NCBI GenBank assembly: GCA_034440575.1
Contig: JAOTOL010001660.1
Coordinates: 434,001 to 498,000 of the forward strand
Length of the DNA: 64,000 nt
Direction of reading: 5' to 3'
DNA from: Imbricaverruca yamaguchii
Lineage: Eukaryota; Arthropoda; Thecostraca; Neoverrucidae
Shown here: positions 1,128 to 61,235 of the stretch, one piece after another
How positions within the stretch are numbered: the first letter of the stretch is position 1
Layout of the letters: each line of letters begins with the position of its first letter
The notes under the pieces: generated by a model
What the model was told of the DNA's origin: nothing
Database searches by the model: none
The model's input: the letters and a program-made list of their open reading frames with translations, nothing else
Made by a program: the position numbers and the translations under genes

Positions 1128-1269
1128 CTACTGGACACCGTTGGTGTGCGCAGTTTCGGGGATGAGCTTCTGCAGCAGGCCGGTGAGAACCAGTAGAGAG
1201 CTCTGCAGTCCAGTCGGCTGGTGCCCCTCCAGCCAGAGCGAGCGGTACTGCTCTACCAGACTCAGCAGT
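1128..1269 (-). CDS. GH20-like gene, terminal exon M
   Basis: Encodes residues 589-635 and a TAG stop at 1128-1130. The acceptor is GTCGGCTACAG|A and the first base completes a Lys codon from exon L. LVEQYRSLWLEGHQPTGL followed by a Leu-rich helix is the expected C-terminus. An ATTAAA on the minus strand at 817-822 is a possible but unproven polyadenylation signal. Confidence 0.88.
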
Positions 1270-4200
1270 CTGTAGCCGACACAGAGGTCGGGTCAGGTCA
1301 GGTCAGGTCAACTTGCTGATGCGCATCCAGCCACAGCGAGCTGTATCACTCCACCAGAGTCACTACGTCAGCAATCGTCGAATTTGTCACCCCATGCGAA
1401 ATGTAGTCATTTGTTCTGACTCTGTTCTGATTCCGTTTCTCTCTCTCTGTTCTGTTCTACTCCATTCTACCATGTCCTGCTCTTCTATTTCCGTTCTGTA
1501 ATCTCCTTCATCTCTTACATTTTCGCATCATTGTAAAATTTATATTTATGAAGCACTAGGAACATTTCATCCGATCGGCGTGAAGGACCTTTCCATGCGG
1601 GTGCCCAGTCATTACGGCACGCCGGGAAACGAAGAAGCGGTCCATTTAGCAAAAGCCTCATTACAACTCCGCAATATCACAGAAATTCCTCAACATTTTT
1701 AAGTCTTCCAATTAGCGATGCGACATAGGCAACATGCGACGTATGACATTTTTCGAACCGACACTAGACACAAAACACAAACCATATACAAATACGGAAC
1801 ATGAAACCAGTCACCAAAACTGAATGCCATCATTTCAAATCAACCGACACGAGGAAAAAGTCCAATCGCGGCTCCGCATGAGACATACGTATCTCACATG
1901 CTGATTTATTTACTCTGCTTCGCTTCGCCCTGTATGCTCATCATGCAGCACCCACCTAACAGTCACACACGTATTCTACTACACTGTCAGCAATGCCATA
2001 ACCCATGAAATAACACAGACAAGTTACTACTACATGCACACATAATGACCTCTTCTTTCTTCTCACCTTTTAACGTTTTTGTTCTTACCTATTCTATTTC
2101 TTACCCTTTTATATTATTCTATATATTCTTATTTATTACCTTTTCTTTCTTCTCACTCTTGGGGATGACGACCCACTTCTCATCAAACTACTTTTCACTT
2201 TTCTCTGATAAACCAACCTGTTCCAGGACATACAATCTAACTTCTACAATATAATACCTTACCTTTATTTGGCACAAAATGGCCTGATGAGCCCGAAGTG
2301 CTGGTGTTAACAAGGCCTAAACTCACACTGCACCAACATCGATAGTTCGTCACCGACACATAGTTCATGCCGGGTCAGTCAGCAGTCTGTCACCGACACA
2401 TAGCTCATGTCAGGTCAGGTCAGCAGTCTGTCACTGTCACTAGTTCACGCCAGGTCAGGTCGACAGTCCGTCGCCGATACATTGGTCACTCCAGGCCAAG
2501 TCTGTTCAAGCAAACCGATACAGCAGCAACAACAAAAGTGAGAGAAAAAGCCCGCATCAGCAAACAACACCAACATAGGTGCTACAATTGGCACCGATTA
2601 CACGTCCACGATACTTACGAAGCGACACCAGCAACTTAAGCAGCGACGGTAACCAGCCTGGGGACAGGACGGCACCGGGCCGGCCGGCTGTGTCTCGTGG
2701 CACTGCTACCCGCCCCTCATCTGTTGGCCGTGTCCGTACAGAAGGTGGGTGCCAGCTATATCCAGGCGCTGCTACCCGCCCCTCATCTGTTGGCCGTGTC
2801 CGTACAGAAGGTGGGCGCCAGCTATATCCAGGCGCTGCTACCCGCCCACTCACCTGTTGGCCGTGTCCGTACAGAAGGTGGGTGCCAGCTATATCCAGGC
2901 GCTGCTACCCGCCCCTCATCTGTTGGCCGTGTCCGTACAGAAGGTGGGCGCCAGCTATCTCCAGTAGCTGCTACCCGCCCACTCACTGGTTGGCCGTGTC
3001 CGTACAGAAGGTGGGCGCCAGCTATATCCAGTAGCTGCTACCCGCCCACTCACTGGTTGGCCGTGTCCGTACAGAAGGTGGGTGCCAGCTATATCCAGGC
3101 GCTGCTACCCGCCCCCTCACTTGTTGGCCGTGTCCGTACAGAAGGTGGGTGCCAGCTATATCGGGCTGCTACGGCCACTCACTTTTGGCCGACAGAAGGT
3201 GGGCGCCAGCTATATCCAGGCGCTGCTACCCGCCCACTCACTTGTTGGCCGTGTCCGTACAGAAGGTGGGTGCCAGCTATATCCGGGCGCTGCTACCCCC
3301 CCTCATCTTTTTGGCCGTGTCCGTACAGGTGGGCGCCAGCTATATCCAGGCGCTGCTACCCGCCCCTCACCTGTTGGCCGTGTCCGTACAGAAGGTGGGT
3401 GCCAGCTATATCCAGGCGCTGCTACCCGCCCACTCACTCACTGGTTGGCCGTGTCCGTACAGAAGGTGGGCGCCAGCTATATCCAGGCGCTGCTACCCGG
3501 CCACTCACTTGTTGGCCGTGTCCGTACAGAAGGTGGGTGCCAGCTATATCCAGGCGCTGCTACCCGCCCACTCACTTGTTGGCCGTGTCCGTACAGAAGG
3601 TGGGCGCCAGCTATATCCAGGCGCTGCTACCCGCCCACTCACTTGTTGGCCGTGTCCGTACAGAAGGTGGGCGCCAGGTTGGCTACGCCCACGTTGATGA
3701 CCTGGTAGCCGATATTGCTGTGCGGATTGGTGCCGACTGACACCAGCGCCCGGCAGATCCTAGCAGTGGACGCATTAGCGCATTAGCACAACGCAGCTCG
3801 CATTACCTATACAATAGCATAACGGACGAATAAACAGCTACCGACAGTCACTTTACCGCCCAACACCACATTAAAATCTCAACATGGCAACATTCTGGCA
3901 ATCAAAATGCTTCGGACGTCAGCAAATTTTCTTGCAGGCGTTCCACCACTGTGGTACCAACGCAGAAGACGACAGTGTAATTGGCATCAAAGCTCCAGTT
4001 GTTCTTGGAACCACTTTGCTCAATTATATCGTAACATCGCTAAGTCATAAACAACGCCACGCGAGACAACATACACCCAGGTGCCGAGAACATCAGCACC
4101 AGTACAAGGACGGGTAGTCTGCTCTCCAACCTCTCTAAGTCCGCCGGTTTCCTGAGGGCAGGAATAGGTAGGCACAGCTCCTTCTAACTTCACTTTGAAG

Positions 4201-7200
4201 CAGCAGTACAAGGACGACCCTATACACCTGTCCAACAGTCCTAATGAAGCGTACATGCAAGGATGGATGGGTGGATATCCTTTTTTGCTGGTTTTACGAC
4301 ACGTCAACTGTTCAGTCATGTAGCGTCATCGTCAATCTCTCTCTCCGATTGGTCGCGGGATAAGAGTAGCGACAGGTGAGACTCGAAGTTGTGTTGATCT
4401 CAAGGATCTCCACAATAGTCACTACAAATAACGTAAACATAGGAGAGCATTCGGTAATAGTGATCACAACATTATACGCATTCCCTGATGTGTTGGAAGT
4501 GTAGGAGTCAATAGAGCATTGGTTCCAAATTTTACTAAGGGAAATTAAAATGAGTTCAGGAACTACCTGAATGAAAATCAGTGGGAAGAGTAATTGATGG
4601 GCTTAGAAGTCAATGAAATATGGAGAATGGTGAAAGACATTAGAGCCGACCTTCGTGTATGTGATATCGATGAGATTGTCTGCGGTAGTACAATGGGGCA
4701 TCATTGAAGGAGTTTGGAATTGTTGAGGAGTATGATATGCAATACCAGGTGAATGATGCTAGATAGACTGGGATACATAGTTCCCTTGCAACGTGGGATA
4801 ATGAATTGATTGGGGTGGGAGCATGTACTTGTTTTGCTTCCTTCCTTGATAGGTTTGACCCAGATGGGTTCCTGTGGCCCTTATTAAGCCTAAACGCTTC
4901 ACGACATTACGACTTAAAGGATGGGCCAACACAGATCTCCTCAATAGTCAATTCAAGGATGGGCCGGTGCACATGACCACGCCTGGGCACCTGACCTGAC
5001 CACCTGTGGACGACACCCACCTGCAGGCGGTGACCATCAGCTCAGCCGCCAGGTGCACCTCACCACGTCTCGAGACACCTCACCACCTGTGTACGACACC
5101 CACCTGCAGGCGGTTACCATCAGCTCCGCCGCCAGGTGCACCTGACCACGTCTCGACACCTGACCACCTGTGTACGACACCCACCTGCAGGCGATGACCA
5201 TCAGCTCAGCCGCCAGGTGCACCTGACCACGTCTTAACACCTGACCACCTGTGTACGACACCCACCTGCAGGCGGTGACCATCAGCTCCGCCGCCAGGTG
5301 CACCCGACCCCGTCTTAACACCTGACCACCTGTGTACGACACCCACCTGCAGGCGGTGACCATCAGCTCAGCCGCCAGGTGCACCTGACCCCGTCTTAAC
5401 ACCTGACCACCTGTGGACGACACCCACCTGCAGGCGGTGACCATCAGCTCAGCCGCCAGGTGCACCTGACCACGTCTCGAGACACCACCTGTAGACGACA
5501 CCCACCTGCAGGCGGTGACCATCAGCTCAGCCGCCAGGTGCACCTGACCACGTCTCGAGACACCTGACCACCTGTGTACGACACCCACCTGCAGGCGGTG
5601 ACCATCAGCTCCGCCGCCAGGTGCACCTGACCCCGTCTTAACACCTGACCACCTGTGGACGACACCCACCTGCAGGCGGTGACCATCAGCTCAGCCGCCA
5701 GGTGCACCTCACCACGTCTCGAGACACCTGACCACCTGTGGACGACACCCACCTGCAGGCGGTGACCATCAGCTCAGCCGCCAGGTGCACCTGACCACGT
5801 CTCGAGACACCACCTGTAGACGACACCCACCTGCAGGCGGTGACCATCAGCTCAGCCGCCAGGTGCACCTGATCACATCTCGAGACACCTGACCACCTGT
5901 GTACGACACCCACCTGCAGGCGGTACCATCAGCTCAGCCGCCAGGTGCACCTGACCACGTCTCGAGACTCACCACCTGTGGACGACACCCACCTGCAGGC
6001 GGTGACCATCAGCTCAGCCGCCAGGTGCACCTCACCACGTCTCGAGACACCTCACCACCTGTGTACGACACCCACCTGCAGGTGGTGACCATCAGCTCCG
6101 CCGCCAGGTGCACCTGACCCCGTCTTAACACCTGACCACCTGTGGACGACACCCACCTGCAGGCGGTGACCATCAGCTCAGCCGCCAGGTGCACCTCCCG
6201 CACCAGCCGGTCACCATCAGGGTGTGCCGGACGCGCCGAACTCAGCGAGGCGAGACAGCGACGCACGAGCTTCAACGTCTTCTATCGACAGCAACATGAG
6301 CAAAAGAGGTTATTCCGAGGCGATAGCCAACTGCTGACTCAATGGCGGTGACTGTGCGCAAGCAAACGACACCACTGTTGTTTCTTTCCTGACACCGAGG
6401 GGCATTCGAGACTTCGCTTGAGAAACGTAGCTGCAGATTTATGTGATGATTGATTATTATTTGGGTTTAAGGGTGCGTCAACCACATTGGGTCATATTGC
6501 ACCCATAACAACGTTGCCTAAGCTCGCGTTAGAACGTCACATGCGAATATAAAACTTTGGTGGTAACTATTAAAGTACTTGATATAAGGTCTATGGTAGC
6601 AATTTATCAGTTAGGTAGGTGCATATACTACGCCAAATCACATCTCCGCAAGGAAGCTCCACATGGATAAAAACTCGGCTAGATTAAATAATGACTGCTA
6701 AAGACTAACAACACTGGAAAGAACGACGAACGTGTCTCTTGACGACATGAAACTGAATTAACTATTTCAACAGACCCAATGTACTGTTCGAAGCAAGTGC
6801 TTGGGTGCCTATATCGAATCTTTTTCTCAATCAAATTACGACTTAATCGCAAATGACCTCCAACTGTTCACTTCACACAGAATCCCATCAATGAGCAGCT
6901 CATTCAAATTGAATAACTTGCCTCGATTTGGCTAGTGGCTAACGTCCGGTGGCTGGTGGTCAGACCACAGCTATTATCACGTGATATTGATAGCAACTGC
7001 ACAACACAGAACCAGCCGCGACATCTCGATAACGCGCACGCCGCAGCCAGAGACTGACGTTGACCGTCTCCATGGTGGCGAACTGGAGCGGCACTGCGTC
7101 CGGGTTGGCCAGCAGCCGCTGCAGGATGGTGCCGTCCGGCGGGGGAAGGCTGGCCGGCCGGCCACACTCCCGGTCACCGGCTGCCCGCAGACTGGCAACG

Positions 7201-10200: not shown

Positions 10201-13200
10201 GCGGATACATCGGATGGTAATGGTCATATGAGTGTTGCTGTTCCCATCACGGATAATTTGAAGGTCGGGCAACCCCAGTCACTGGCAAAAGGGGCTTATC
10301 GAAGCTGAAAACACTCAGGCTGCAAGACACTACTTTATCTGGTCGCCGTCGTAGCTCGTGCGGTGTGTACTGCCCCTCGCTATACCGTGTGTACCATGTG
10401 AGCTGACTGATTTATTGCAATTTGTATGGACAGAATGACATCTTTTCTGAGTATGCAGACCCTATTTTAATTATAGATAATTTAAACTGTAATATTTTAC
10501 GTGTAGCTCCCAACGACAATACCTCTGCGTTGTTAGATTGGTTGCACATCATGTCTTTTTTAACTAATGTGTCCATCAACCCACTTATCTTCAAATCGAA
10601 TCTACTCTTCATGCATTGTTGGAATGGCCAGTCACTTGTGCCGTCTGTTTCGGTTTTAGTTGTGCATGAATGCTGACAAAAGGGGCAACAAACACCAACG
10701 GACCATATGTCCAAACCGTGGGCGCTACGTGGATAAAAACAGACAAACCGGTACAGCGCAAGTCCCATACAGAATGTTAAAAAAATGCAACATAAATAAC
10801 TGATCCCTGGCTATACATACAACATTCTTCCTCTTCGGAGAGCTGCGCCGATGTGTTTTCATCAGCATTTCAGCTCTCGTGACTATGATTCCGTACCAGC
10901 TTGCTATACGCCTCGCAACCACACCGAGGCTACCTCTCACCACATGGCTCTTAAGTATACATCGTCTCAAAAACCACTCATCACCAGCGGAATGCTACTG
11001 GACTCCCCCTACCCGAGGGTTCTCCCATGACCGGATGATTGTTATGCAAACCCTCGTCACTAGTCAGCTGCTGTGTAAACATGCATTGCCAGAGGCTCTT
11101 CTGCAAACTTAACAGCGAAAGTATGTTATGCAAACTCCAGCATGCTGCCGTCAGGTGCTTTCACCATGTGTTGGCACAGCCGGTTAGTTAGTTATTACGG
11201 CTTTAGGGTGGCACATCCGGTGGAAACCACTCACTATGTGGCGATGTTCATAGTGGGCACCACTCACCATGTGATGTTCATAGTGGGAACCACTTACTAT
11301 GCAGTGATATGCATAGTGGGAACCACTCACCGTGTGATGTGCATAGTGGGAACCACCAACCATGTGATGTGCATAGTGGGAACTACCCACCATGCGGTGA
11401 TGTGAAGAGTGGGAATCACTCCTCATGCAGTGCTGTGACGGGCGGTAATCACTCCACCTGTATGCATGCATCCATACTCACTCATACTCGTCATACTCAT
11501 CCACAATCACTCCACACATGCATCGGGTGGGAATCACTCACCATGTAGTGACCTGTGACGGGCGGGAACCACTCATATGGTGGTGTAACGGGTGGTAGCC
11601 ACACCATGTAGCGGTGTATCGGGTGTGAGCCAATGCCCATGTGGTGGTGCATCTGGTGCGAACCACTCACCATATTGTGGTGCCGCGCGTAGAGCAACTC
11701 ACCATGCGGCAGTATGTCGGGTGGAGACCGCACACCGTGCAGTGGTGGTGTGGCGGTTACTAGCTTTACGACACATCGGCCGTTGAACCATGCAGCGCCG
11801 CCAATCTCTCACGCCGACTGGTCGCGGGCGACGAGCAGCGGCAGGTGAGACCCGAACCCACAACCTTCCGATTGTGGGACGGGCAACTAACCTCTGCCCA
11901 CCATGCAGTGGTGTGACAGGTGGGAGCCACTCACCAGTTCGTCTCCACCCGACCCAGCTCGACGACGGCCCGGCCCAGCGCGCCGTCAGAGTCTCTCAGT
12001 ATGTGACAGTTGAGCAGATCCGCCAGGGAGGAGTGTACAAACTCCTGCAGACACGGACACCATGGTCTCAGTATGTGACAGTTGAGCAAGTCCGCCAGGG
12101 AGGAGTGTACAAACTCCTGAAGACAAACACCATGCTCTTAGTGATAGTTGAGCATCTTACTGTTAGATCCTACCGCAAGAGAGGAGTGCACAAACTCCTG
12201 CAAACACGAACACCATGCAGATGGATGGGCTCACGCAAAGGTAAGCTACAAAGCGTATCAAATCTCGGGGAGGGATACATTCTTTGGATATAAACTCAAT
12301 TCGCGTAAAATAGCCTTACGCTCATGTTACAACAAACGTATCAAAATTTGCGCTGCATATATTTCGGCGACGGGCCTTCTTCAACTGTTGGGGAATGCCC
12401 GTGGCAAAAATATACACAGCGCGAATCTGGATCTACTATTTTGTTGCAACATGAGCATAAGGTTATTTTACCCGTTCTTCTTATTCATAATCATGCTCAA
12501 AACAGCACTGCACCTTATTAAACTCACTTCTGCATTATTCGATTAAACAAAATATTCTTGCAATAAATGCCATCAATCGACTACCAAACTACCCAAGTTG
12601 AAACCGCTGACGAAAATTTCTTACTCGAATGATTTGTGGTAGGATTGGGCAGGGGATTGATTCATATGGACGGCCAGAGAGCACACTGGTCGAGCTCGCT
12701 AGAAGACCCGGTCGATGCCACGGAGCGGTTATGTTAGCTCCTGCAGTACAGCAGGGTGACACCTAGAGGAGGTCCAACTGGCACATGTCTCCGAGAGATA
12801 TGTGGCCAGTTACGTCGGCCGCAATGACGTGGCAACACGACGCTGTGGTGTCGAGTGGAGTGCCAACCCCCCACAGGTCCATCGGCCCCGCCCGGTGTTT
12901 GTCCTATAAAGCCAGTTCAGGACAGGCAAGTCATTCGGCCCAAGCTCACCCCATCATGCACTGGTAGGCGCAGTTTGAATATGGCAGGCGTTAAACTCGG
13001 AAATATGAGTAAGAGTTCAACGAAAGATCCCTCCTATGGCTACGCCACGACGACTTCGTCAGCCACGGCAGGCGAAACACTTTTCGGATAGGCATGGTTG
13101 ACGAGTCACGAGCGTCGCTATGGATGCTGAATATGGGGGGAAAGAGGGCGTTTAGGTAGTTTTTCCATGAAATGTCGTAGGCGCAAACTAAAATGCTACG

Positions 13201-16200: not shown

Positions 16201-19200
16201 AGATTTGATTACAGACATTCAACCGGGGAAATCACCGAGACCAATAAAATATGTGTTCAGGAAAAAGCACAAGAGGTCCCGAGAGAAAATTCCCGTCGGG
16301 CCCCGAAATCGCACACATGGTTCCGGACAGTAGCGCCGGGGCCTCAACAAAGTCGTGATAAGGCCAACAAATCCCTTCCAATATGTGCACTTTCGTTTAT
16401 TACTAGAAGAATGGACACATCCACACCACAATTCTGGAGGGATAACTCATACTACTCGCATAGATAGCAGACCCTCAAGAATCTCAACTCAATTATTTAT
16501 AATCAAATGAATGATGGTCGAAGAAATCACTGGTTATCTGTTGTTTGGAGTAGACAAAAAGCCACTTCTAATTCTATACCATCTCAACTGCCTATTTGAA
16601 TAACCTGGATAAACTGAAATTATATTTCTTAAATAGTGATAAAAGCCAACCTGTGACTGTCACTGTCCCATCAAATCAAAGCTCTTCTTGTGGCAAGCAG
16701 TTACGACAGCGACAGCTGACGACATGGGAACAGCGCCGTCCAGTGTGTGCCACAGGGTGGCAATCCACACTGCCGTGTGGCTGACCAGATGACAATAGTT
16801 CCGGCGGATGTCATGCCCCACAAACAGCTTGACGTCACGTGTCCGACACGTGCCGGACGGTGAGGCCGCGAGATTTCGCCCGGAGGTGGGATGAGATCAC
16901 GACGGCGGGAGCTCGCCGGAGGCGCGGTGACGTCACGACGGCGTTCGCTGATTGGCCGCCGGCCGCAATATCAGCGGCCGGCCCAGCCGAGGCGGCGCAG
17001 TGTACGGCGGTACGGCGCCAGTCGGACAGGTGCGCAGCGTCGAGGTGGCGTCACGCGTCCGAGCGCACACACACACATACAGACACGCACACACGCGGGA
17101 GCCGCCTGGATCGCGCCGGGAATCGTCGCGCCGACGTTCTTTCTGCAGGCGCAGTTGACGCAGACCGCTCGCCGCGGGTCGCCGGAGAGGAGTCATCGTC
17201 GGCGGATCGCCATGCCGCTGGAGAAGGCGCTGGTGGTGGCGGCGCTGGTCGTGATTTGCAGCGGTCTGCCGGCCAGAGTCGGCAGCGGTATATACTTCCC
17301 CGGGCGCAGGGTGGCGGGCGCTGCTCGGACAGAACTACCGAGCCGCAGTCGAGTGCGGCCGGCGGGCGTCGGAGCCTCGTCCTCGGCGGTCGCCGCGGCC
17401 GGAGTGCGGTCCGGAGCATGGGCTGCCGGCGGCGCCGCACACTCCCGGCGAACACTGGCGGCGGCCACACACCGTGGCGAGGCTCGAGTCGTGACGGGCG
17501 ACGCGCCCCCAACACAGGCCGACCACGCTGTCGGCGGCGTCGAGCGCCATGCAGGCCACACACGCATCCGCCCTCGTCTTCGATGCGACCGCGGGTCGAG
17601 CGCCGCACCGCCGGACACCGGTGCGCCGCCGAAACCCCAACGTCGACACCGCCAGCGCGCAGGCGTCGGCGCGAGCTTCCCACGGCGTCGTCACCGTCGA
17701 TGTTGCCCAACAGCGACGACCGCAAGGTGGGCCGTCGCCGGCGGCCGCCGCCGAGTCCGTCGTCGACGACACGCCGCCTCGGTCGGGCATCATCCACTTC
17801 GATGAGCGTCCGACGCGGCGGCGGCGGTTCCCGCTGCCGCGGTGCGGCGGCCGGCCGTTCCAGGCCTACCACAACGCCAGCGGCGACTGCCAGAAGCTGT
17901 GGACGGCCGACGTCTGCCAGGCCGGCTACTGGTTCGTCGTCGACTACAACAGCGGAGAGGCCGGCTGCCGGCCTCGGCCGTGCCGCCGGGACCGGCACGT
18001 GCTGGTGGACGCCCGCTGTCGACCGGTCAACGCCAGCGGGCTCTGCGCCGACGGCATGCGCGTCGCCATCGACGAGTACGGCCACGGCGTGTGCGACTGC
18101 GAGGCCGGCTTCGTGTTCTGGCCGCGCCACGGCCGCTGCTACCCGGCGTACAGGCGCGGCCCGTGCGCCGCCGGCCAGCACCTGGTCGTCGCCGACAGCC
18201 AGCCGACCGTCCAGTGCCAGCCGTCCAGCTGTCCAGACGGACAGGCGCTCTGGCCTGACCCCACCGCCGACGACGGCCCGCCGGCGACGACGACCGCCGG
18301 GCGGGCGACGACAGAGCCGGCCGGCGTCTCGTGCTACCCTCTGAACACGACCGCCGGCAGTCCTTGTCCGGGCGGCAAGCTGGAGGTGGACCCTTATACT
18401 CTGCAGCTCGAGTGTCAGGTGCTGGTGCTTTTTGGGATTTTCAATCCGCCGATGGTGCCCTGCTCCGCCGGCAGCATGCGCGACTTCAACGGCAACTGCC
18501 GCCTAGAGCTGTTCCAGAAGTTTCGCACCACTCTCTTTCGGTCCGGCCGGCCAGCAGACACGAGCGTGTGGTCCGACGAATGCGTCTTGACCATCAGCGG
18601 CTCGTGTGTCGGCACCGTGCAGACGGCCACTGCCGGAACCGGCCTAGCTGCTGTCGGAGCAGGCCCAGCCACCTCCGCCACCTCCGCCACCTCCGGCACC
18701 TCCGGCCGCCCGGCTGTCGCCACCTCCGCCACCTCCGCCACCTCCGGCACCTCCAGCACGGCTCCTGCCACCATCTCCAAGCCACCGCTGCTGTTCAGCT
18801 CAGCTGCGGCCCGGTCAGGCCGAAGCCTCGGACGCTGACCGAGGGCGTCCTTGTCGCGACGGCGCAGGAGCTCCGAGCGGGAGTGGTCAGACTGCCTCGC
18901 ACTCGTAACCACTCAATTTCCGACGAGGAAGCACTCCGGCCAGCAGCAAGAGGTCGTCAGTACAAAACCTCTGTCTTGACAATGCTGCTTCCCCGCCGGA
19001 TGGGCAGCTACAGTTCGACTTATGAAGCTGACCCCAAGAGTGGCGGTAGATGTGAGGTGTTGGTGAAAAAAACATTTAGGTGCACGTCACCTAGTACTCG
19101 CTTTGTGTGATATCAAGCTTTGTCTGTGATATGGTTTGGTGTGAACAATACAAACAAAATCGTGTATGAAATGTACACGAGGCTAATGCTTTTTGTGATG

Positions 19201-25200: not shown

Positions 25201-28200
25201 CAAATTCTTCTGCCAATTCACACGCGGAACGCGGGTTCGTGACACAGGGCCGAATCGCCCTCCCTGGTATAATGCCGACCTAACACAATGCCGAGCTGTG
25301 CAAGAGTATCGTGTGTCAATAGTCAACTGAGTCAACTGAGTACTATCGGCATCATCCGGCGTAAAGCCTGCCGCCCACCGCGCTGTTTGATTGATTATTT
25401 TGGCTTAAGGGCCCGCCCACCGCGCTATTGCACCGTGCGATTATCCAGCCGATCCGGGCGGCCGCTCTAGTGGATTCAGCCAGCTGCTCCAGCGGATCCA
25501 GGCAGCTGCTCCGGCGGATCCAGGCAGCTGCTCCAGTCGATTCAGACAGATGTTTCAGTCACTCCAGCCAGATGTTCCAGTCGATCCAGCCAGACGTTCA
25601 AATCAATCCAGGCAGATGTCCCAGCCGATCGATGCAGCTGTTCCAGTCGATCCAGGCAGAAATTTTGCAACTCGTAAACAACTGACAAAAACGTACGTGC
25701 ACCACGACCAGATTGGACGGATGCTATTCATGGTCGGCGACCACTGAGAGACAAAGGTACACCGAGTGTGAACAGCGAGTGATACGGAAAGATCGATTCG
25801 CTTTTCAGGTTATAAGTAGCCATGACGAGGGGGCTAAGCGGCGGTTGCCCAACTACGCATCACTTTGCACTCGTCCCCCGTGTGCCTCCATCCGATGCTG
25901 CTGACGTGACAATGCCAATCATCGCTGGAAGTAATAGTGTGTTTACGCTCAACACACTGTGAGCTACCATAGGGGTGGCGAAGCCTGTAACTGGTCCCAG
26001 TGGCATTGCGTGACATTTCAGCCGTGTAGAGGCGGACTGAAAACAACAGACGCAAGCAAACAGTTCGGGCTAAATGGAAGCCAACACTGCAATGCCTTAA
26101 GGTGAATGGACACACGCCAACTTCTTGATTATTAAACAGGGTCAGGCTTAACAGTATATGAGAAATATGGTGTTGATTGTGATTAGAAGCAAAAGTTCAT
26201 GAGGGGAGCGGAGAGAAAAAAGCATGAGTGAATGAGGTATGGTATTTTGGAGAAAAAAGCATGCATTATCGGTGTTCCAATTTTCGGTTCGGCTATAGGT
26301 AGAGCTTTAGTACTCAAATTTTCTTGGACCATTCATTAAGTGACGAGTAATTAAACCGTTTCACAATGGAAATCAAGTATATGAAATATACCAGATGTTA
26401 GAAACATGCTGGTACGCAGCGGCAGCCACGTAGAAACGAATTCAGTTCAATAGAACCAAACTAGCTTAACCGTCTGTGGTTCAAACGTATAATGTGTGCT
26501 CGTAATACAATCCTACAAAGGAGCAAAACGCAGCCATCATCAGCATGGCATGTCGCTGCTCCAGAGGCTCGTCCCCGGCACACTGTTGGAGTAAATGAAA
26601 GGCTAGCATGTCAAGAGTGCCTCTAGGATGGAGCCGATGTCCCTCTGATATGAAACCAGTGATAAATTATTCGTGCAATGAGGTGGGATATACCACCTAT
26701 TGGACAGTGACGAGACATCCTTCCCAAAGAAGTGTCGACATCGTGCCTCTTGATGTGTGTTTATGAAGTCCCCATGCCTTGTTTCTGATGGTGGTTTATG
26801 TAAGTATCATTTCCATGCTAACCATTACATATTGTGATACGTAAACATCTTGTATCTAACGCGAATTCAAGTAAAGATATTACGCATCATATGGTCTACT
26901 GTGTAATATAATTTGCTGATAGTATGCATTCTTATCATTCTCATCAACATAAGTATCCCTATATTAGGTATGTCCCAAGATAAACGAAAAATTGCACATA
27001 GGTATTGTAGGCTATAGGTTCAAAATTTTGTTTGAAGGACTTGAATGCTAAAAGGCGTAAAAAACCTTATGCTCATAATAAAACAAAAATAGATCCAAAT
27101 TCGCACTGTATATATTTCGTCCACGGGCCTTCCTGAACCTTAGTTGAGGAAGGCCGATGGCCGAAATATACCCAGTGCGAATTTTAATATATTTCTTTGC
27201 TTTATTATGAGCATCAGGTTCGGTTACGCACTTTTCTAGCTCACAATCATGCTCAATGCTGCACTGCACCTAGTCAGACTTGAACCATATTTGACCAGTC
27301 TGTCCATTGGAGGTCCGGAGAGGCTCAAGCGTGTCGCGGGTACATTAGAACAAACAAGCGCATTGCATGCACTTGATACAGAGCTATATAGATGTAATGA
27401 TTAGTGCAACGGTAAATAACCAATCACACAGTTCGTGGGCATCGTTTACTATCGACATGCCCAATGTTAGCTCTCATCAATACTGTTATTCCGTCTACCA
27501 GCGCTTGAGCTTCGGTGTAGTTCAGTTCCCGGAGACTAGTTCTGGTCCACACTGCCTGCATCACTGCATGGTGTTAGTTCAACCTTAGGCTCATCAGAAG
27601 TCAGGTCACCACCACCAAATACTGCTCGGATTTTAGACACTTCCACCTCAACCACCTTTTTGGGCGCTGCATGACCAACGCAGTCGATGCGCCCTTAAAT
27701 TCCAATAACCAACCAACCTCCACCACCTTACCACCTCCACCAGCATTTGAGCTTCTGGTCAGGCCACCAGCGAACGCTCACCGTTCCCCAACCGGATTAC
27801 AAGTCAAGACTTAGCCAGTCATTTGTGGTTAAATGTAGACCGACTGTTGCGCTCAGACCGGGCCCAGTTAGTTAGTTATTAGGGCTTAAGGGCGCATCGA
27901 CTACATTGGTCATGTAGCGCCCTCAGACCGGGCCCACGGCCCACCAGTCGGATCAGACCACAAGGTATCACCTCCTGGTGGAAATGAGTTCAGGTGGAAT
28001 CGCAGGTCAGCGTTTGGCAGCGGTACTTACGGTGGGCGTGTCCGGGTTCCAGGTCAGGCCAGCAGCTGCCACCAGCCCGGGCAGGGAGAACACACCGTGA
28101 CTGAGGTCGCCGTCTGACCGCCAGTCAGCCACCACCATTCCAACTCCCATCTGCCACATAAACACACACCGTTACTGGGGTCTCCGTCTGACCGCCAGTC

Positions 28201-31200
28201 AGCCACCACCATTCCAGCTCCCATCTGCCACATAAACACACACACCGTTACTGAGGTCTACGTCTGACCGCCAGTCAGCCACCACCGTACCAGCTCCCAT
28301 CTGCCACATAAACACACGCTGGCTGCCACACAACCATATAACGGCTCCCATCTGTCACACAACCACCTTACGGCTCCCATTTGCCACACGACCCACTGCA
28401 CGACGCCTTGAGGGGTGCGTGAGGGCCCTTCAAAACGGTTGCCTGGAGGACCCCTCAGACCTTTAAGGGGGGGGGGGGTTGCGGCTGCCCGATCGCCTTT
28501 GGCTACGCCACTGTTTACACGGTGGTATTCTTTCGCAACGTGGTGTGTGACCACTACAAACGCAGGGTAGGTAGCTAGCCGAAAGTCATCAAGCGAGCAC
28601 AGAGCAATAGCTAGTTCCGGTGCGTGAGAGGCGCGTGATCGGCATGGCCTAGCAGCGCGCTACTGTCCTTGGTCAGGCTGACGCGGTTAAACAGTGGAGC
28701 TAAACGGATGACACTAAAGCCGAACGTCGGCTGGGTGCTGAACTGTCAGTGCTCACAAGACTTCAGGGCACCAACCGATAACCCGTCCCGTCTTTCCTGT
28801 CAGATCTTCACCCTGTCTCTGTGGTGACAGAGCCCCCCCCCCCCCTATTCTCCAAACTAAGCGCAGCACGAAGACGAGAGGTGTCATCGGAAAACGCTCG
28901 AAGAGTGGGGACAGAAGCCATCCGCAAAATTGCATTCCACAAAATTGACGTCACTATGGGGGCCTGTGTTTTCACGACTGACATGCTTTTTGCTGTTGCA
29001 AGATCATTTGGGGGTAGATTTGACGAGCATTTGGAATCCTTATTTGGATCATTATTTGAATCATCACACGTTATTTGGAATCACTTCATGGGCCGAACTT
29101 TGTTTATTTTGGCTGCACCAGGCGATTTTTGTGGATACTGACGCAAATTACTGGGGTCCCAGTGCCAATTTGTGGCGTTCCAGTGCGATTTTCAGGCAAA
29201 GGTGCGACTTTTCTGGGCCCAAACGCGAGTTATCAGGGCCCGAACGCTAGTTTTCTAGACACCTCAGTCTTAGGCCGATTGAGGGGTCCGCCCAATGGCT
29301 CCGCCTCGGTCCAAGGGGAGCTTCTGTCTGAAAAATTCCCGATGAAAGGTGGCGCAAAGCAGGGAGGTACACTCGAGCCTTCCCTGCGGTGCGCCACCTT
29401 TCATCGGGGAGGACCCACACATGCCCCATCTGCATCCGTCCCCGCTAGGTACATCAGGCCCAACGGAAAAGACATGCGGTAAGGAAATCCAGATGCCTTT
29501 TCTACAGAAACATACCTAGAGCAATAACAAATAATATTGGCACACTATAAGCACGACCGAATATAACACGTGCGGGCAATGAAGATCAACATGTATGTCC
29601 AGCGCCAATTACGCTCACACGCAAGGATGACGTCATAGCAGATACGAAAATCTCCTGGCCCTACGAAAACATCCTACGCTCCTAAGCTTCTACGAAAACC
29701 TCCTTGTCATTACTAGCAGTTTATCACATAAAAATTGTTTCTTACCTATACTTAAATGCGAATAAAAGTTATCAAATATTCACCAAAGAAGGGGAATTCT
29801 CCTCACGAAAGGTGGCGACACCCACACCGCTAACAAACAAACAAAAATCGCGCCCAGACCAGAAACATCGCCCCGGAATCCAACAATAATGAAGACGGGG
29901 ACCCGAAAATTATATAGTGGTCCTTGAAACCAACCCAAGGCCAGAACATCTCTCCAGAGCCAACAAAGTCTGCATCGGCGCCCAGACACCTAGCATCGGG
30001 CCTAAAAAAACTCGTGCCTAGGCCCGAAAGATCGGAATACAACATTTAGATTGCAAATACGAATAAAGATGAGCTTAACAATTTTCAGCACTTCTGCATA
30101 CCATAGTTACTATTGAAATGAGTGCTTAATGATTGTTGCGGGGGAATTACAAAAAATAAATGACGATGACAGTCGTGATGTGAGGCAATGCCATCTAACC
30201 TGAACAGCTTATGCATTGGTGACGTGGTGAAGTGTTCGCTAAGGGTGGGCTAAAGTGGTGGCCGTGGTTCAAGTACGATAACTCCAACACGTATACTTGT
30301 TAGATATGCTTCACACTAAGCCGATATTCCGGCTCCGCAAATATGTCACACCAGTCTTTTTTTTAAACGATATCTTTATCAATAGTTGTAAATCTCTTCA
30401 TGGTACTACTGCATACCATAGCTACTATTCAAATGAGTGCTTAATGATTGTTGCTGGGGAATTACCAAAAGTAAATGACGATGACAGTCACGATGTCAGG
30501 CAATGCCAACTAATCTGAACGGTACGTGCGCTGATAACGTGGTGAAGTATTCGTTAAGGTGGGCTAAAGCGGTGGCCGTGGTTCATGTACGATAACTTCA
30601 ACACGTACATTGTGGATATGGGAATCGAGCCGCCTTCGTGTTTTGCAACACTTTTGATACAAAGTAGATTCCCTTGAAAACAAAGCACATCGTATCGGCA
30701 GTCATTGACAGTTTCGGAGATCTGCCGGAATCCTTTTGTGAGATATTCTTCATACCTAGCCGATATGCCACACAAGATATGTTTGGAAAACGATATCTCT
30801 ATCAATAGTTGCAAATCTCTTTACAGCAGGGTTAAAATGTTGGTTTTTCATTAGGTGTGAGATGTCAAAATGAGCACAGTAGGATGTTGAAATTTGCCAT
30901 GGAATTAGCATAATTTAAAATGCTTTTGACGTCTTTCAGACACAAGTTTAAGGAAATGTTATATGTGATGTCCTTATGGCTACCTTCATCATTTGTTTTA
31001 AGATCCATAATTTAGGAAGAGCTATGTTCAAGATAGGGAGAATAATATCTATGTTGTAAACTGGTATTTTATGCCATATCACATTTTAGGTAATACCTTT
31101 ACATGAAACTGTATTGTGATATGTCCATGCACTACCACTTATTGGTAGCATGGGCATTATACATATGAATAAGATACTGTTAAAAAGGAGAAACAAAGAC

Positions 31201-43200: not shown

Positions 43201-46200
43201 AGGTTCGTGCAGGGAAACAGTACTAATCAGTCCGAACAAGAGCACAGCCCTGAGCAGCTCGGCCATGCTGCCACTACTGACCAGCTTTGGCAGCCGGCCG
43301 TGTGGACTGAGGTCGATGAGAAGGCCGCGCTGCTGCAGGCGGGGCCGGTCGGTCAGCAGCAGCTGCGGGCAGCCGTCGGCTGCGAACAGCCGCAGCAGCT
43401 GCAGCAGACTGGTGATGCCGTACCGCAGGCCTGAGAGGTCCCCGCAGCTCACACGAACCTGCCCGCAGCCAAACACCCAGGTGGTGGTACATAGCAGACC
43501 TGAGAGGACCCCGCAGCTCAGACGAACCTGCCCGCAGCCAAACACCCAGGTGGTGGCACATAGCGGACCTGGGAGGACCCACAGCTCACAACCTGCACAG
43601 CCAAACACCCAGGTGGTGGCACATAGCAGACCTGAGAGGACCCCACAGCTCACACGAACCTGCCCACAGCCAAACACCCAGGTGGTGGTACATAGCAGGC
43701 CTGAGAGGACCCCGCAGCTCACACGAACCTGCCCACAGCCAAACACCCAGGTGGTGGTACATAGCAGACCTGAGAGGACCCCGCAGCTCACACGAACCTG
43801 CCCACAGCCAAACACCCAGGTGGTGGCACATAGCAGGCCTGAGAGGACCCCGCAGCTCACACGAACCTGCCCACAGCCAAACACCCAGGTGGTGGTACAT
43901 AGCAGACCTGAGAGGACCCCGCAGCTCAGACGAACCTGCCCGCAGCCAAACACCCAGGTGGTGGTACATAGCGGAGCTGAGAGGACCCCGCAGCTCACAC
44001 GAACCTGCCCGCAGCCAAACACCCAGGTGGTGGTGCATAGCAGGCCTGAGAGGACCCCGCAGCTCACACGAACCTGCCCACAGCCAAACACCCAGGTGGT
44101 GGTACATAGCAGACCTGAGAGGACCCCGCAGCTCACACGAACCTGCCCGCAGCCAAACACCCAGGTGGTGGTACATAGCAGACCTGAGAGGACCCCGCAG
44201 CTCACACGAATCTGCCCGCAGCCAAACACCCAGGTGGTGGTACATAGCGGAGCTGAGAGGACCCCGCAGCTCAGACGAATCTGCCCGCAGCCAAACACCC
44301 AGGTGGTGGCACATAGCAGACCTGAGAGGACCCCGCAGCTCACACGAACCTGCCCGCAGCCAAACACCCAGGTGGTGGTACATAGCGGACCTGAGAGGAC
44401 CCCGCAGCTCAGACGAACCTGCCCACAGCCAAACACCCAGGTGGTGGCACATAGCAGGACCTGAGAGGACCCCGCAGCTCACACGAACCTGCCCGCAGCC
44501 AAACACCCAGGTGGTGGTACATAGCAGGCCTGAGAGGACCCCGCAGCTCACACGAACCTGTCCACAGCCAAACACCCAGGTGGTGGCACATAGCAGACCT
44601 GAGAGGACCCCGCAGCTCACACGAACCTGCCCGCAGCCAAACACCCAGGTGGTGGTACATAGCAGGCCTGAGAGGACCCCGCAGCTCACACGAACCTGTC
44701 CACAGCCAAACACCCAGGTGGTGGTGAGAGGACCCCGCAGCTCACACGAACCTGCCCGCAGCCAAACACCCAGGTGGTGGTGCATAGCGGACCTGAGAGG
44801 ACCCCGCAGCTCACACGAACCTGCCCGCAGCCAAACACCCAGGTGGTGGCACATAGCAGACCTGAGAGGACCCCGCAGCTCACACGAATCTGCCCACAGC
44901 CCAACACCGAGACGGTGGTGTACAGTAGAACCTGGGAAGTCATCGTAGCTCGTACGGACACGACCACAACTAAACACCCAGATGACGGGGTATCGCGGGT
45001 CCGATCAGCCTCAATAGGCAACTCCGACATGATTCGCAAAATAGCATACAGGACCAAGGTGAGCAGGAAGTATCACGTTAGGCATGGGTGGTATCGATGC
45101 GCTTTGCAAACCTGGACGAAAGCGGCGAACCCAACTCGGACCTGGTGGACGCCACTATAAAAGAACACAGTAGACTAGCACACGATAAGGACACCCCACA
45201 TAATGCTCTGGACGCGCCCATACGTAGTTGCGACGCTAGGAACAAACAGCGACTCATGGACGTTCCAAAAACATAGTGCACTGACACTCATTTTTACAGG
45301 TGTCTCTCAGCGCATGCTTAGTGTGTACACGTGCAGCCTAGCCATCCAAGCACATAAATACAACACAACCACCCCAAGTTACTGTTCGATTGCATTGGGT
45401 ACTTGTTGTGAGTCAACCAGAAACCATAAGGCACTGCAATAACGTGCTAAAACACAACACAAAAGGTGGCCTCACTTGCTTGGCTAGCACAGTCAGACTG
45501 TACGACTCCGGGGTGGACATCACCCTGTCAGAGACTGTACAGACAACATTGGCCGGTAGATGGTAGGACGAGCGGCCCTGCACGCCCGCCATCTTGATGG
45601 TGTAGCCGAGCGCGGCGAAGTCGGCGCGGTACACGTCCCACGTATCCAGGATCCTGTCGGCAGCCAAGGTGTACACCTCACCGATGGCTCCCGCTCTGGC
45701 AGACAACAGGCAGACGGCACTGACTTTAAATGGAATGCATGCAACTATGTGAGCTAAGTTGGCTCAAAGAGAATACCGGAGTTGCGAGGCCGGGCCAGCG
45801 CCACAGCTGACGTCAGGCCCTGTCAGCGTCACAACTGATGTCAGGCTGGGTCAGCGCCACAGCTGACGTCAGGCCGGGTCAGCGACACAGCCGTTGTCAG
45901 GCTGGGTCAGCGCCACAACTGACGTCAGGCCGGGTCAGCGCCACAGCTGACGTCAGACCGGGTCAGCGCCACAGCCGTTGTCAGGCCGGGTCAGCGCCAC
46001 AGCTGACGTCAGGCCGGGTCAGCGTCACAGCTGACGTCAGGCCGGGTCAGCGCCACAGCTGACATCAGACCGGGTCAGCGCCACAGCTGACGTAGGCGAC
46101 ACAGCCGTTGCCAGGCCGGGTCAGCGCCACAGCCGTTGCCAGGCCAGGCCGGGTCAGCGCCACACCTGACGTCAGGCCGGGTCAGCGCCACAACTGACGT

Positions 46201-46518: not shown

Positions 46519-46534
46519 CTGGGGGCAGGGGGCC

Positions 46535-47165: not shown

Positions 47166-47179
47166 ACAGCCGGTAGGCG

Positions 47180-50082: not shown

Positions 50083-51412
50083 TGACCTGTAGCGGCGTCG
50101 GGGTGACCCAACCATCTTCCAGTGACCTCACCTCGCCCTGCCTGACCAGCGGCAGTGACGGGGTGATCCGGCCATCTGCCAGTGACCTCACCTCGCCCTG
50201 CCTGACCTGTAGCGGTGACCCGGTTATCTGCTGGTGACCTTACCTCGTCTTGCCTGACCAGTAGCGGTGACGGGGTGACCCGGTCATCTGCCAGTGACCT
50301 CACCTCGCCCTGCCTGACCAGCGGCAGTGACGGGGTGATCCGGTCATCTGCCGGTGACCTCACCTCGCCCTGCCTGACCTGTAGCGGTGACCCGGTTATC
50401 TGCCGGTGACCTCACCTCGCCCTGCCTGACCAGCGGCAGTAACGGGGTGACCCGGTCATCCGCCGGTGACCTCACCTCGCCCTACTTGACCTGTAGCGGT
50501 GACCAGGTTATCTTCTGGTGACCTCACCTCGCCCTGCCTGACCAGCGGCAGTAACTGGGTGAGCCGGTCATCCGCCGGTGACCTCACCTCGCCCTACTTG
50601 ACCTGTAGCGGTGACCCGGGCATCTTCCGGTGACCTCCCCCGCCCTGCCTGATCAGCGGTAGTAACTGGGTGAAACGGTTATCTGCCGGTAACGTTACCT
50701 AGTCTTGCCTGACCTGTAGTGATGACGGGGTGACCCGGTCATCTACCAGTGACCTCACCTCACCCTGCCTGACCAGTAGCGGTGACCCGACCATCTTCCG
50801 GTGACCTCCCTCGCCCTGCCTGACCAGCGGCAGTGACGGGGTGACCCGGTCATCTGCCGGTGACCTCACCTCGTCCTGCCTGACCTGTAGCGGTGACCCG
50901 GCCATCTTCCGGTGACCTCACCTAGTCCTGCCTGACCTGTAGCGGTGACCCGGCCATCTTCCGGTGACCTCACCTCGTCCTGCCTGACCTGTAGCGGTGA
51001 CCCGGCCATCTTCCGGTGACCTCACCTCGTCCTGCCTGACCTGTAGCGGTGACCCGGCCATCTTCCGGTGACCTCACCTCGTCCTGCCTGACCTGTAGCG
51101 GTGACCCGGCCATCTTCCGGTGACCTCACCTCGTCCTGCCTGACCAGTAGCGGTGACCCGACCATCTTCCGGTGACCTCCCTCGCCCTGCCTGACCAGCG
51201 GCAGTAACGGGGTGACCTGGTCATCCGCCGGTGACCTCACCTTGCCCTGCCTGACCAGTAGCGGTGATCCGGCCAACTGCCGGTGACCTCACCTCGTCCT
51301 GCCTGACCTGTAGCGGTGACAGGTTGACCCGGTCACCCGCCGGTGACCTCACCTCGCCCTGCCTGACCAGCGGCAGTAACGGAGTGACCCGGTCACCTGC
51401 CGGTGACCTCAC
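50083..51412. repeat. 52-60-bp minisatellite carrying a splice donor
   Basis: About 23 units. On the minus strand each contains GGTCAGGCAGGGCGAG|GTGAG or a close variant, matching the end and donor of the candidate exon at 51413-51633. Confidence 0.92.
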
Positions 51413-51633
51413 CTCGCCCTGCCTGACCAGCGGCGGCGGCGGAGGCGACTCGGCCGTCGGCGACGTCGGCTCCGTGGTGACGTCACTCAGCAGTGACGTC
51501 AGCGAGCCGACGCTGTCCAGCCGGGAGACGAGTTTGCGCTGCTCGCCGCCAGAGTGCGTCGTCACGGGCGTCATCGGGGCCGACGAGTGGCGCTCAGACT
51601 GTGACACCTGGCGGAGCACGGCCAACACGTCAC
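51413..51633 (-). CDS. Candidate exon, Ser/Thr/Pro-rich
   Basis: The minus strand shows an acceptor (GTGCTGCTCAG|GT), 73 open codons and a donor (GGCGAG|GTGAGG), phase 0 out. The peptide includes QRKLVSRLDSVGSLTSLL and a run of five prolines; I recognise no family. The last 20 or so bases and the donor recur in each unit of the array downstream (50083-51412). Its exit phase matches exon A of the GH20-like gene, so it could belong to the same transcript, but this is unproven. Confidence 0.4.
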
Positions 51634-52865: not shown

Positions 52866-52919
52866 GCGGTGGCCAGCCGTAAGCACGATCGGCGCAGACC
52901 ACGTGGTCCCGGTCTCAAT

Positions 52920-56499: not shown

Positions 56500-56880
56500 G
56501 TCGTACAACACGTGCGCCACACGTGGCCAATGTATGGCCTATCACGGAGCACCAGGCGCTGGCGATGGAGTTCATCCGTTGTACAGACCCCCCTCCCCCC
56601 TCAGTGCGGCGCAGCGCGGCACGTGCGCCACACTTGGCCAATGTATGGCCTATCACGGAGCACCAGGCGCTGGCGATGGAGTTCTTCCGCTGTGCAGACC
56701 CCCTCCCCCCTCAGTGCGGCGCAGCGCGGCACGTGCGCCACACTTGGCCAATGTATGGCCTATCACGGAGCACCAGGCGCTGGCGATGGAGTTCTTCCGC
56801 TGTGCAGACCCCCTCCCCCCTCAGTGCGGCGCAGCGCGGCACGTGCGCCACTCTTGGCCAATGTATGGCCGATCACGCAA
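56500..56880. repeat. 112-bp tandem repeat, three and a half copies
   Basis: Units run from CACACTTGGCCAATGTATGG to CCTCAGTGCGGCGCAGCGCG. The minus strand has GGGTCTGCACAG|CGG in each unit, an acceptor-like site next to open sequence at 56370-56500, but no exon could be fixed. Confidence 0.88.
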
Positions 56881-58927: not shown

Positions 58928-58978
58928 GATTGGAGTTTAGGGGCGCGTCGACATCTAGGGTCATTTTGTGCCCATAAC
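58928..58978 (-). mobile_element. Short element copy, variant tail
   Basis: GGATTGGAGTTTAGGGGCGC ... GTGCCCATAACT is nearly identical to the 46629 insertion. No duplication was found. Confidence 0.5.
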
Positions 58979-59100
58979 TGGAATGTAATCAATCTACGGT
59001 GCTGCTATCATAGCTCACTATCCATCTTCACGGATGGGGGTATATCACGTCAAGGCGAGCTTGTCAAATGAACATAAAAATATTCCCAGACGCAACGGCC

Positions 59101-59805
59101 TCAGAGTCGTTTCCTATAAGTATACGTAAAGAAGAGTCGGTGTTCAACCGTCCTAAGAATCTGGCGTCGTAGAGGATCTAGCAGTGTACAGCCAACTAAA
59201 ACATGGTACACGGTAAGCGGGTTAGAACAGCGCGGACATACGGGACGGTCATTACCGGTCAACATACAACTATGTGTTGCAAAGGTATGGCCTATTCTCA
59301 ACCGACAGAGTATTACTTCTTCCCGACGTTTGGTTCGGTTAGAGGATAGCCATTTTCCTAGTGTCGGTTTTAAAACCTTGACCTTACTACACTTCGAATT
59401 CCGGGATCGTCGCCATTATGACCGTATACTTGACAATATAGTAGGGTATATATCTCTCGGAGGGAGCCGTAGATGGACCACACGGCCATTGCTAATGGCG
59501 TGCTTGGCGGTTATGTCAACAGCTTCATTTCCGGCGAGTCCAACGTGGCTAAGAGTCCAGCAGAACACTAAAATTATTTCGATGTCATGCAGAGATGTTA
59601 CTACTTTGATAACCATCCGAACAAGTCGGTTATCCTGGTTAAAGATGTTCAGTGCCTGGAGACTGCTCAGAGAGTCTGTGAAAACCACATGCTTTGTGGA
59701 CCGGTCTTGGGTGCCGAAGTGACCCAACGTCATCAGCCAATCACAACCTCCTGCCGGTGGTGCAGTGACCCTGCAGCCGGAGTGGTCAGCAATAGTGCTG
59801 GCCAT
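59101..59805 (-). pseudogene. Non-LTR retrotransposon remnant: RNase H and zinc-knuckle tail
   Basis: The minus strand encodes an RNase H-like block (VVFTDSLSSLQALNIF ... FCWTLSHVGLAGNEAVD) followed, in the same frame, by one TAA stop and then RREEVILCRLRIGHTFATH and CPRCSNPLTVYHVLVGC, the classic post-RNase H tail of I/Jockey-type elements. The nonsense codon and loss of the reverse transcriptase make it a dead fragment. The Met at 59805 is probably not a real start. Confidence 0.75.
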
Positions 59806-59951
59806 ATCCTACGCGTTTACACTGACGAGCCCTCATCACCGTCGCACACGCCAGCCTCGCGTTCCCAGCTAACCCGGAGCGACCTCTCAACACCCACGCG
59901 CGCGTGACCTCGTTGCGACTAGGCCCGAGGTGTGACGGGTCGGCAGCTGAC

Positions 59952-60020
59952 CTTGGTTGGTTATTGGCTTTACGACGTATTGACTGTTGAGTCATGTAGC
60001 GTCGCCAATCTCTCACCTGG
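59952..60020 (-). mobile_element. SINE family 2, 3' fragment
   Basis: Only the 3' part of the family is present (TTATTGGCTTTACGACGTAT ... CATGTAGCGTCGCC); it stops abruptly before the tRNA-like region, as a 5'-truncated insertion would. Confidence 0.55.
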
Positions 60021-60192
60021 TTGGCTCCCCAAACTCCCGGGCACCACTCACCCAGGGATGAGTTCCGCGGTCGACCAAGGGGAGCCGGTATCTGCAGGTA
60101 GGCCAGTCCGCTCCCACCAACACCCAATTTTGTTTACGCTCTTTCCAAACCGCGGCAAACGTGGCGCGCGTAATCTCCGCCCGGCAGCTGAC

Positions 60193-60331
60193 CTTGCGTT
60201 CGACGGAGTTTCCCGGCGCGCCGTCGCCCTGGCCACGGGACGTCTCGGCGGCCGTCCTGTAGCGCGTCAGCAGAGCCAGCACGTCCGGTCTGTCGGCGGC
60301 CAGGTCCACCGGCGACCGCTGCGCGTACTTC
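60193..60331 (-). CDS. Candidate exon with ankyrin-like motif
   Basis: The minus strand shows an acceptor (GGCGGGCAG|G), 46 open codons and a donor (CGCAAG|GTCAGC). The peptide contains RSPVDLAADRPDVLALL, like the last helices of an ankyrin repeat, then a Gly/Ser-rich linker. The acceptor and about 52 exonic bases recur in every unit of the adjoining array (60332-61235), as happens at exons of the GH20-like gene. Parent gene unknown: it could be an upstream exon of the same transcription unit or a separate gene. Confidence 0.45.
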
Positions 60332-61235
60332 CTGCCCGCCAGACGTCGCGTCACGTCACGTCACGACACGTCACGCCGATACACGTCTAGTCTGTCGGCG
60401 GCCAGATCCATCGGCGACCGCTGTGTGTACTTCCTGCCCGCCAGACGACACACGTCAAGTCAAGTCACGTCACGTCACGTCACGACACGACACGACACGA
60501 CACGTCAGGCCGATACACGTCCGGTCTGTCGGCGGCCAGGTCCACCGGCGACCGCTGCGCGTACTTCCTGCCCGCCAGACGTCACGTCACGTCACGTCGA
60601 TACACGTCATGTCTGTCGGCGGCCAGGTCCACCGGCGACCGCTGCGCGTACTTCCTGCCCGGAAGACGTCACGTCACAACACGCCACGTCACGTCACGTC
60701 ACGACACGCCGATACACGTCCGGTCTGTCGGCGGCCAGGTCCACCGGCGACCGCTGCGCGTACTTCCTGCCCGGCAGACGTCACGTCACGTCACGTCACG
60801 TCACGACACGTCACGTCGATACACGTCATGTCTGTCGGCGGCCAGGTCCACCGGCGACCGCTGCGCGTACTTCCTGCCCGCCAGACGTCACGTCACGTCA
60901 CGTCACGTCACGACACGTCACGCCGATACACGTCATGTCTGTCGGCGACCAGGTCCACCGGCGACCGCTGCGCGTACTTCCTGCCCGGCAGACGTCACGT
61001 CACGTCACGTCACGTCGATACACGTCATGTCTCGTCACGTCCTGTCGGCGGCCAGGTACACCGGCGACCGCTGCGGGTACTTCCTGTCCGCCAGACGTCA
61101 CGTCACGTCACGTCACGTCACGTCACGCCGATACACGTCATGTCTCGTCACGTCCTGTCGGCGGCCAGGACCACCGGCGACCGCTGCGCGTACTTCCTGC
61201 CCGCCAAACGTCACGTCACGTCACGACACGCTATG
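60332..61235. repeat. About 120-bp minisatellite carrying an acceptor
   Basis: About eight units. On the minus strand each contains GGCGGGCAG|GAAGTACGCG and about 52 exonic bases matching the candidate exon at 60193-60331, separated by variable ACGTC/CACGT microrepeats. Confidence 0.9.

Follow-up and report, generated by a model that had tools for sequence, protein, structure and literature searches.

Tandem arrays carrying splice junctions in a GH20-like gene of the barnacle Imbricaverruca yamaguchii and at other junctions of its genome

Tandem arrays whose units carry an exon's own splice site were found in a GH20-like gene of the barnacle Imbricaverruca yamaguchii, in a stretch of 64,000 nucleotides (contig JAOTOL010001660.1, positions 434,001 to 498,000; assembly GCA_034440575.1) that is called the window below and numbered from its first letter. 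Copies spanning the splice site lie near 7 of 29 junctions of this gene and, in a sample of other loci of the same genome, on the intron side of 21 of 171 junctions (12.3%, each array counted once), where a two- to threefold excess over intron sequence matched for guanine-plus-cytosine (GC) content remains in this sample. The reading that we favour, at a probability of roughly 70%, is that the arrays are mirages, as minisatellite-like duplications of exon-intron boundaries are called in amphioxus: duplications that cross a junction would be tolerated, the decoy splice sites would be neutral passengers, and a modest bias towards junctions is left unexplained.

The gene lies on the minus strand, as do all exons and arrays described here. 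Exons were placed by tblastn with an Amphibalanus protein (P0001), and 15 of them (e1 to e15), joined at AG/GT borders, yield a single open frame of 732 amino acids (aa) plus the terminal stop. To map its border copies, probes of 40 exonic plus 30 intronic nucleotides (nt) across each of the 29 junctions were searched against the whole window. Nearby copies spanning the splice site were recovered for the acceptors of e1, e5, e10 and e11 and for the donors of e2, e13 and e14, the spanning copies at these seven junctions sitting within 450 bp. An eighth junction, the e15 acceptor, is a weak case with one copy that holds 8 exonic nt about 1.1 kb away. Both border types are affected in the window (three donors and four to five acceptors). 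The same search of the window returned no spanning copy at 20 of the 29 junctions, and the e11 donor has three copies, none of which spans the junction. Two matches of the e3 acceptor probe, at 18153 and 40281, were discarded as noise (distant, and 69–71% identical).

Each of the eight exons concerned is supported by tblastn to P0001 and by the open frame (borders are marked by a slash). Upstream of e1 (60193..60331; acceptor GGCGGGCAG/GAAGTACG at 60331), a 107-bp array at 60343..61230 includes the acceptor with at least 40 exonic nt (about 50 by eye), and its eight spanning copies lie between 60435 and 61196. Upstream of e5 (43282..43458; acceptor GGCTGCGGGCAG/GTTCGTG), a 69-bp array at 43425..44920 carries the acceptor plus 34 exonic nt in 22 spanning copies. 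The acceptor of e10 (28031..28150; TATGTGGCAG/ATGGGAG) recurs with up to 61 exonic nt in an array of about three 74–76-bp units at 28090..28317 (two spanning copies), while that of e11 (11935..12044; GTGTCTGCAG/GAGTTTG) is found with 25–40 exonic nt in two diverged upstream copies (88–89%) at 12045..12230, unreported by Tandem Repeats Finder (TRF). At the donors, the intron after e2 (51413..51607; CAGGGCGAG/GTGAGG) holds a 52–60-bp array at 50102..51430 with 23 spanning copies that include about 20–40 exonic nt. An 81-bp array at 4994..6196 follows e13 (6157..6281; CCTGCAG/GTGGGTG) and contains the donor with about 40 exonic nt in 14 spanning copies, the best of them 100% identical over 70 bp; a 67-bp array at 2699..3677 follows e14 (3643..3759; GCCAACAA/GTGAGT) and holds the donor with 35 exonic nt, again in 14 spanning copies. 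For e15 (1128..1269, including the stop codon; acceptor GGCTACAG/ACTGCTGAG), an acceptor-like segment with 8 exonic nt (84%) lies in a 41-bp array at 2349..2482, and a diverged copy of the exon start at 1304–1378 (tblastn E 0.37, and by eye) is likewise weak.

Unit periods in the window are thus about 52–107 bp, and the array copies extend away from the exon. By TRF coordinates the arrays reach 18–61 nt into the exons, although such coordinates alone undercount the cases, missing e1, e11 and e15. Junction-bearing copies are nearly as many as the units counted by TRF (14 against 14.9 at e14, 14 against 14.8 at e13, 23 against 23.9 at e2 and 8 against 8.1 at e1), so that the seed duplication would already have held the junction. 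The original prediction, made from the letters of the window, had claimed arrays whose units contain the splice site of the adjoining exon, donor or acceptor, together with 18–60 exonic bases, and many near-identical decoys within one gene. This anatomy was borne out: there are 86 spanning copies, of which 78 keep AG or GT. The exon letters used there could not be mapped one-to-one to e1–e15; the span then given, 1128–61235, agrees with the position of the stop codon at one side and with where the e1 array ends at the other.

Within the window, 35 arrays (hand-merged TRF rows) placed uniformly on the gene with arrays collapsed would yield 0.93 junction-spanning cases, and five were seen by TRF coordinates (P value = 0.0027). 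Enrichment measured by the bases lying in arrays was rejected as misleading, since repeated sequence takes up 38% of the intron positions tested in the window and 20% of those in the sample; instead, arrays were counted once, by their exon-proximal copy. In a stricter control, intron positions served as pseudo-junctions, with only the exon-proximal copy per array counted and GC content matched. The junction structures are real, but this single gene has a modest excess of them.

A survey of junctions against intron positions, as proposed with the original prediction, was made on a sample of exons from this genome that match GH20, myosin, kinesin or SNF2 domains, comprising 98 loci of which eight were dropped. 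The loci were picked by place and profile range before any sequence was seen, and covered 8 of 11, 30 of 72, 50 of 126 and 10 of 52 listed matches of the four families, respectively; 20 of the kinesin loci and all 10 SNF2 loci were selected by hand. Three myosin loci (L022, L024 and L025) were dropped as having a second copy of the whole exon, with positive exon-middle probes, and were judged to be mutually exclusive exons; L020 and L030, which both match the same profile part, were left out as a judgement call (for L020 one edge was positive in the first count and none later, and for L030 none was in the first count); and L001, L002 and L009 were dropped as single long matches. Before loci were dropped, 22 of 162 edges were positive (18 outside the three loci with whole-exon duplicates).

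The 21 positives of the final sample comprise 14 donors and seven acceptors, distributed as 0 of 8 GH20, 5 of 47 myosin, 13 of 96 kinesin and 3 of 20 SNF2 junctions. Among collapsed intron positions, 222 of 5870 (3.8%) were positive after removal of 1161 non-proximal positions, and none of 90 exon-middle probes was (3 of 88 at an earlier stage, with the duplicated exons still included and the SNF2 loci not yet). A TRF-based count over the first 122 edges gave nine junction arrays against 2.69 expected. The frequency of positives was 11.8% at the junction, 11.5% at 20–70 bp and 3–5% from 80 to 1040 bp into the intron, the value at 20–70 bp presumably reflecting largely the same arrays as at the junction; inside the exon, 2 of 163 were positive at 45 bp and none of 163 at 70 bp. 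When 18 edges were inspected by eye, splice motifs lay within the units in most positives, as at the two borders of one kinesin exon, while one locus (L038) was unconvincing. In 18 of 20 sample cases the nearest copy lies 29–106 bp away (outliers at 354 and 525 bp), units diverge by 0–30%, and the positives are spread over many contigs. At 7 of 29 junctions, the GH20-like gene shows no significant difference from the sample (P value = 0.08), and the notion that the phenomenon is special to one gene is not upheld.

Many arrays of high GC content arise in this genome. Arrays favour GC-rich sequence, to which exon edges belong (GC 0.596 versus 0.496), and this explains nearly half of the arrays at junctions. 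After GC matching, 20 of 170 junctions were positive in the sample against 8.72 expected (P value = 5e-4), with an odds ratio of 2.39 (1.27–4.19, bootstrap by locus); the strict set, leaving out L038, a poor case, and L047, a putative paralogous copy that contributes two junctions, retained 17 of 167 (P value = 0.006). Hence the predicted enrichment at junctions stands in the sample but is weaker than it looks, as composition predicts 8.72 of the 20 cases there and 3.46 of the seven in the window.

At L046 and L047, two kinesin loci that share a contig, the exon matches are the same in 378 of 378 bases, while the arrays beside them differ in length (10.7 and 9.7 units; 8.3 and 10.0 units). This shows array turnover beside a fixed exon, and the two loci could be alleles or paralogues. 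In addition, myosin exon matches of about 50–70 aa were observed inside open frames of 1051–1080 aa (C1376:1866589, C1138:564602 and C1082:452662), which suggests stop-free, perhaps repeat-rich introns.

Under the mirage reading, a chance tandem duplication across a junction would be harmless because the exon-proximal site would still be used and the extra copies would fall in the intron. After duplication over a donor, the first donor would stay in place with the duplicate behind it in the intron, and an acceptor would behave mirror-wise. Duplications within exons would be selected against, as is suggested by their absence from all 90 exon middles. From two copies on, slippage or unequal exchange could enlarge the array, and the decoy sites might occasionally be spliced but would otherwise be neutral.

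Several points weigh against this reading. In the window, with arrays collapsed and GC matched, 3.46 junctions would be expected by composition against the 7 of 29 observed (P value = 0.05). In the sample, the GC-matched excess is modest and the sample is small, consisting of three domain families plus eight GH20 edges, none of them positive. We infer the use of the exon-proximal sites from reading-frame continuity and the ortholog only. Finally, the sense strand of non-junction intron arrays held more AGGT than expected (35 versus 22.0; antisense ACCT, 22 versus 22.7), a possible sign of a more specific process at junctions. As 13 motifs were tried in up to 95 loci, the AGGT excess is a hint only, and perhaps stems from arrays of unseen junctions.

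Such a process is the strongest competitor of the mirage reading. Transcription pausing, R-loops or breakage linked to splicing would seed the duplications at junctions, with composition and tolerance secondary, a possibility that we hold tentatively and consider rather unlikely. The GC-matched excess, in the full as in the strict set, the sharp peak at the junction and the sense-strand AGGT hint all agree with it, as does the observation that the window's seven junction arrays are G-rich on the sense strand. That richness was not matched in the sample, where the sense-strand GC skew was 0.003 for intron arrays (n = 140) and 0.073 for junction arrays (n = 18; P value = 0.41), so the R-loop cause raised in the original prediction finds no skew signal there. 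Moreover, the units do not end at the junction, their exonic share ranging from 8 to 61 nt as under random placement; composition makes up nearly half of the signal; and GTGAG is depleted in intron arrays (10 versus 17.8).

A historical alternative, which we judge improbable, is that short ancestral introns forced duplications of 50–100 bp to cross junctions, the long introns having come later. It would explain junction seeding without a special mechanism, and the unit lengths are about the size of small introns, but several arrays are recent, with units often 90–100% identical to the functional copy, non-array or collapsed sequence in the introns of the gene amounts to about 39 kb, and no unit of the seven, as read, extends across an entire intron.

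Selection might instead retain the splice-site copies for redundancy or for variable isoforms, as had also been suggested originally; this appears quite unlikely. AG or GT is kept in 78 of 86 decoys, yet this fraction is close to that expected from unit identity (near 0.93 squared), and the exonic and intronic halves of the decoys are about equally conserved, with no extra constraint. Likewise, the distance to the nearest decoy is a multiple of three in 5 of 8 cases from the window and in 8 of 20 from the sample, but the resulting reading-frame bias (13 of 28) is not significant (P value = 0.10), and the segment up to the nearest decoy contains a stop in 14 of 28 cases. Least probable of all, and by a wide measure implausible, is an assembly artefact in which reads were collapsed or mis-expanded at repeats: the two kinesin loci with identical exon matches on one contig could be a false duplication, but the same anatomy recurs at 21 of 171 junctions of the sample, on many contigs and with diverged units.

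With respect to the identity of the gene, the closest protein found is P0001 itself, Amphibalanus amphitrite LOC122381028 isoform X4, described as ankyrin/GH20-like, to which the 732-aa product is 71% identical over 100% of the query. The remaining 54 protein matches are 27–44% identical, the named ones being mostly from arthropods. In the genome (767 Mb in 1430 contigs, the window being part of contig C1427), the product has 15 matches at E ≤ 0.001, all of them these exons on the same contig. The first exon found, e1, aligns from residue 53 of P0001, and tblastn returned no convincing match within the window for the ankyrin part before that residue. The seven exons not described above are each supported by the open frame: e3 (46352–46518), e4 (45476–45653), e6 (41644–41750), e7 (40910–41056), e8 (40149–40335), e9 (35953–36108) and e12 (7059–7191).

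The window is absent among the 11 listed genome matches of the GH20 catalytic domain PF00728, and a stitched partial protein of 458 aa matched no Pfam family above the cut-off. In the ortholog P0001, PF00728 scored 20.5 bits, below its cut-off of 22.3 and over profile positions 2–37 only, while PF02838 exceeded its cut-off, which establishes homology to GH20 proteins; matches of the stitched protein to solved hexosaminidases were weak (best E 0.0019). Judged by the open frame and the homology, the gene is real and the GH20 label is correct as homology. In P0001, P0002 and the e8 region of the window, the proteins read HLGPH or HLGPR where GH20 enzymes have H-x-G-G-D-E, and the family may be catalytically dead.

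Other features were observed in the window. An open frame of 447 aa on the plus strand (17495–18838) matches DUF4789 (E 1.8e-20) inside the long e10–e11 intron and is probably a nested gene on the opposite strand. A tRNA-Ala gene (31356–31430, minus strand; anticodon cgc by ARAGORN; 68.7 bits in Rfam) lies in the e9–e10 intron and is the sole result of the Rfam and tRNA scans. Short tRNA-like segments that by eye resemble short interspersed nuclear elements recur at 11770–11900 and near 35100, 40400, 47200 and 47850, uncalled by ARAGORN. A plus-strand open frame of 530 aa (62312–63901) matched no Pfam family above the cut-off (AP3D1, 16.4 bits against 28.2).

Mirages are described, in the excerpts available of two papers, as minisatellite-like duplications of exon-intron boundaries in the amphioxus genes Adh3, the globins BflGb6 and BflGb9, TnC and PGBD5, with units of 10–160 bp, at both 5′ and 3′ borders and with AG/GT kept in many copies (PMC3087553, PMC3902484). 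Adh3 data and globin reverse-transcription PCR are reported there to point to normal splicing, and a model for the gain of introns is put forward. The barnacle arrays resemble these, as far as the excerpts go, in their tandem units of minisatellite size that span the border and its splice signal, and in affecting both border types. They differ in occurring in a crustacean, several in one gene, and in being counted across a genome sample. Copy-number instability between haplotypes and somatic instability are further traits of the amphioxus type.

Tandem duplication involving splice signals also underlies the Rogers model of intron gain from AGGT-containing sequence (cited in PMC3087553) and cases of intron gain in Drosophila (PMC2891723); here, in contrast, existing junctions are multiplied within existing introns. 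The polyubiquitin gene UBC, with dual-specific splice sites in its tandem repeats (PMC10809524), is similar in its tandem array of splice sites among which stochastic choice is possible, but its repeat is coding and has reported splice use, whereas the barnacle copies are intronic and known from DNA alone. Ordinary intronic minisatellites, or variable number tandem repeats, share the unit size, the GC richness and the turnover in copy number, but not the exon bases and functional splice site within the barnacle unit.

Among the matches listed in the openly licensed literature, no arthropod mirage was recognised from titles and the starts of abstracts, which is weak evidence. The word tandem is absent from the main texts of two barnacle genome papers, whose passages on the subject, as far as seen, deal with repeats and intron lengths only (PMC8917513, PMC8270832). 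As far as seen, mirages in a barnacle are a new taxonomic occurrence of a known kind, and the sample of one genome supplies an estimate of their rate. A broader version, which we put forward as speculation and think unlikely, is that duplication targeted to junctions acts genome-wide, with about one-eighth of junctions bearing rows of splice sites, some of them spliced, so that isoforms of variable length, often in frame, would arise along with material from which new introns could form.

Mirages have been described from few amphioxus genes, to judge by the parts of those papers at hand (PMC3087553, PMC3902484); a frequency of about one in eight barnacle junctions would open them to statistics. 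The questions thereby raised are how the spliceosome chooses among up to 24 near-identical sites, whether tandem duplication may seed introns, and whether splice junctions may be mutational hot spots.

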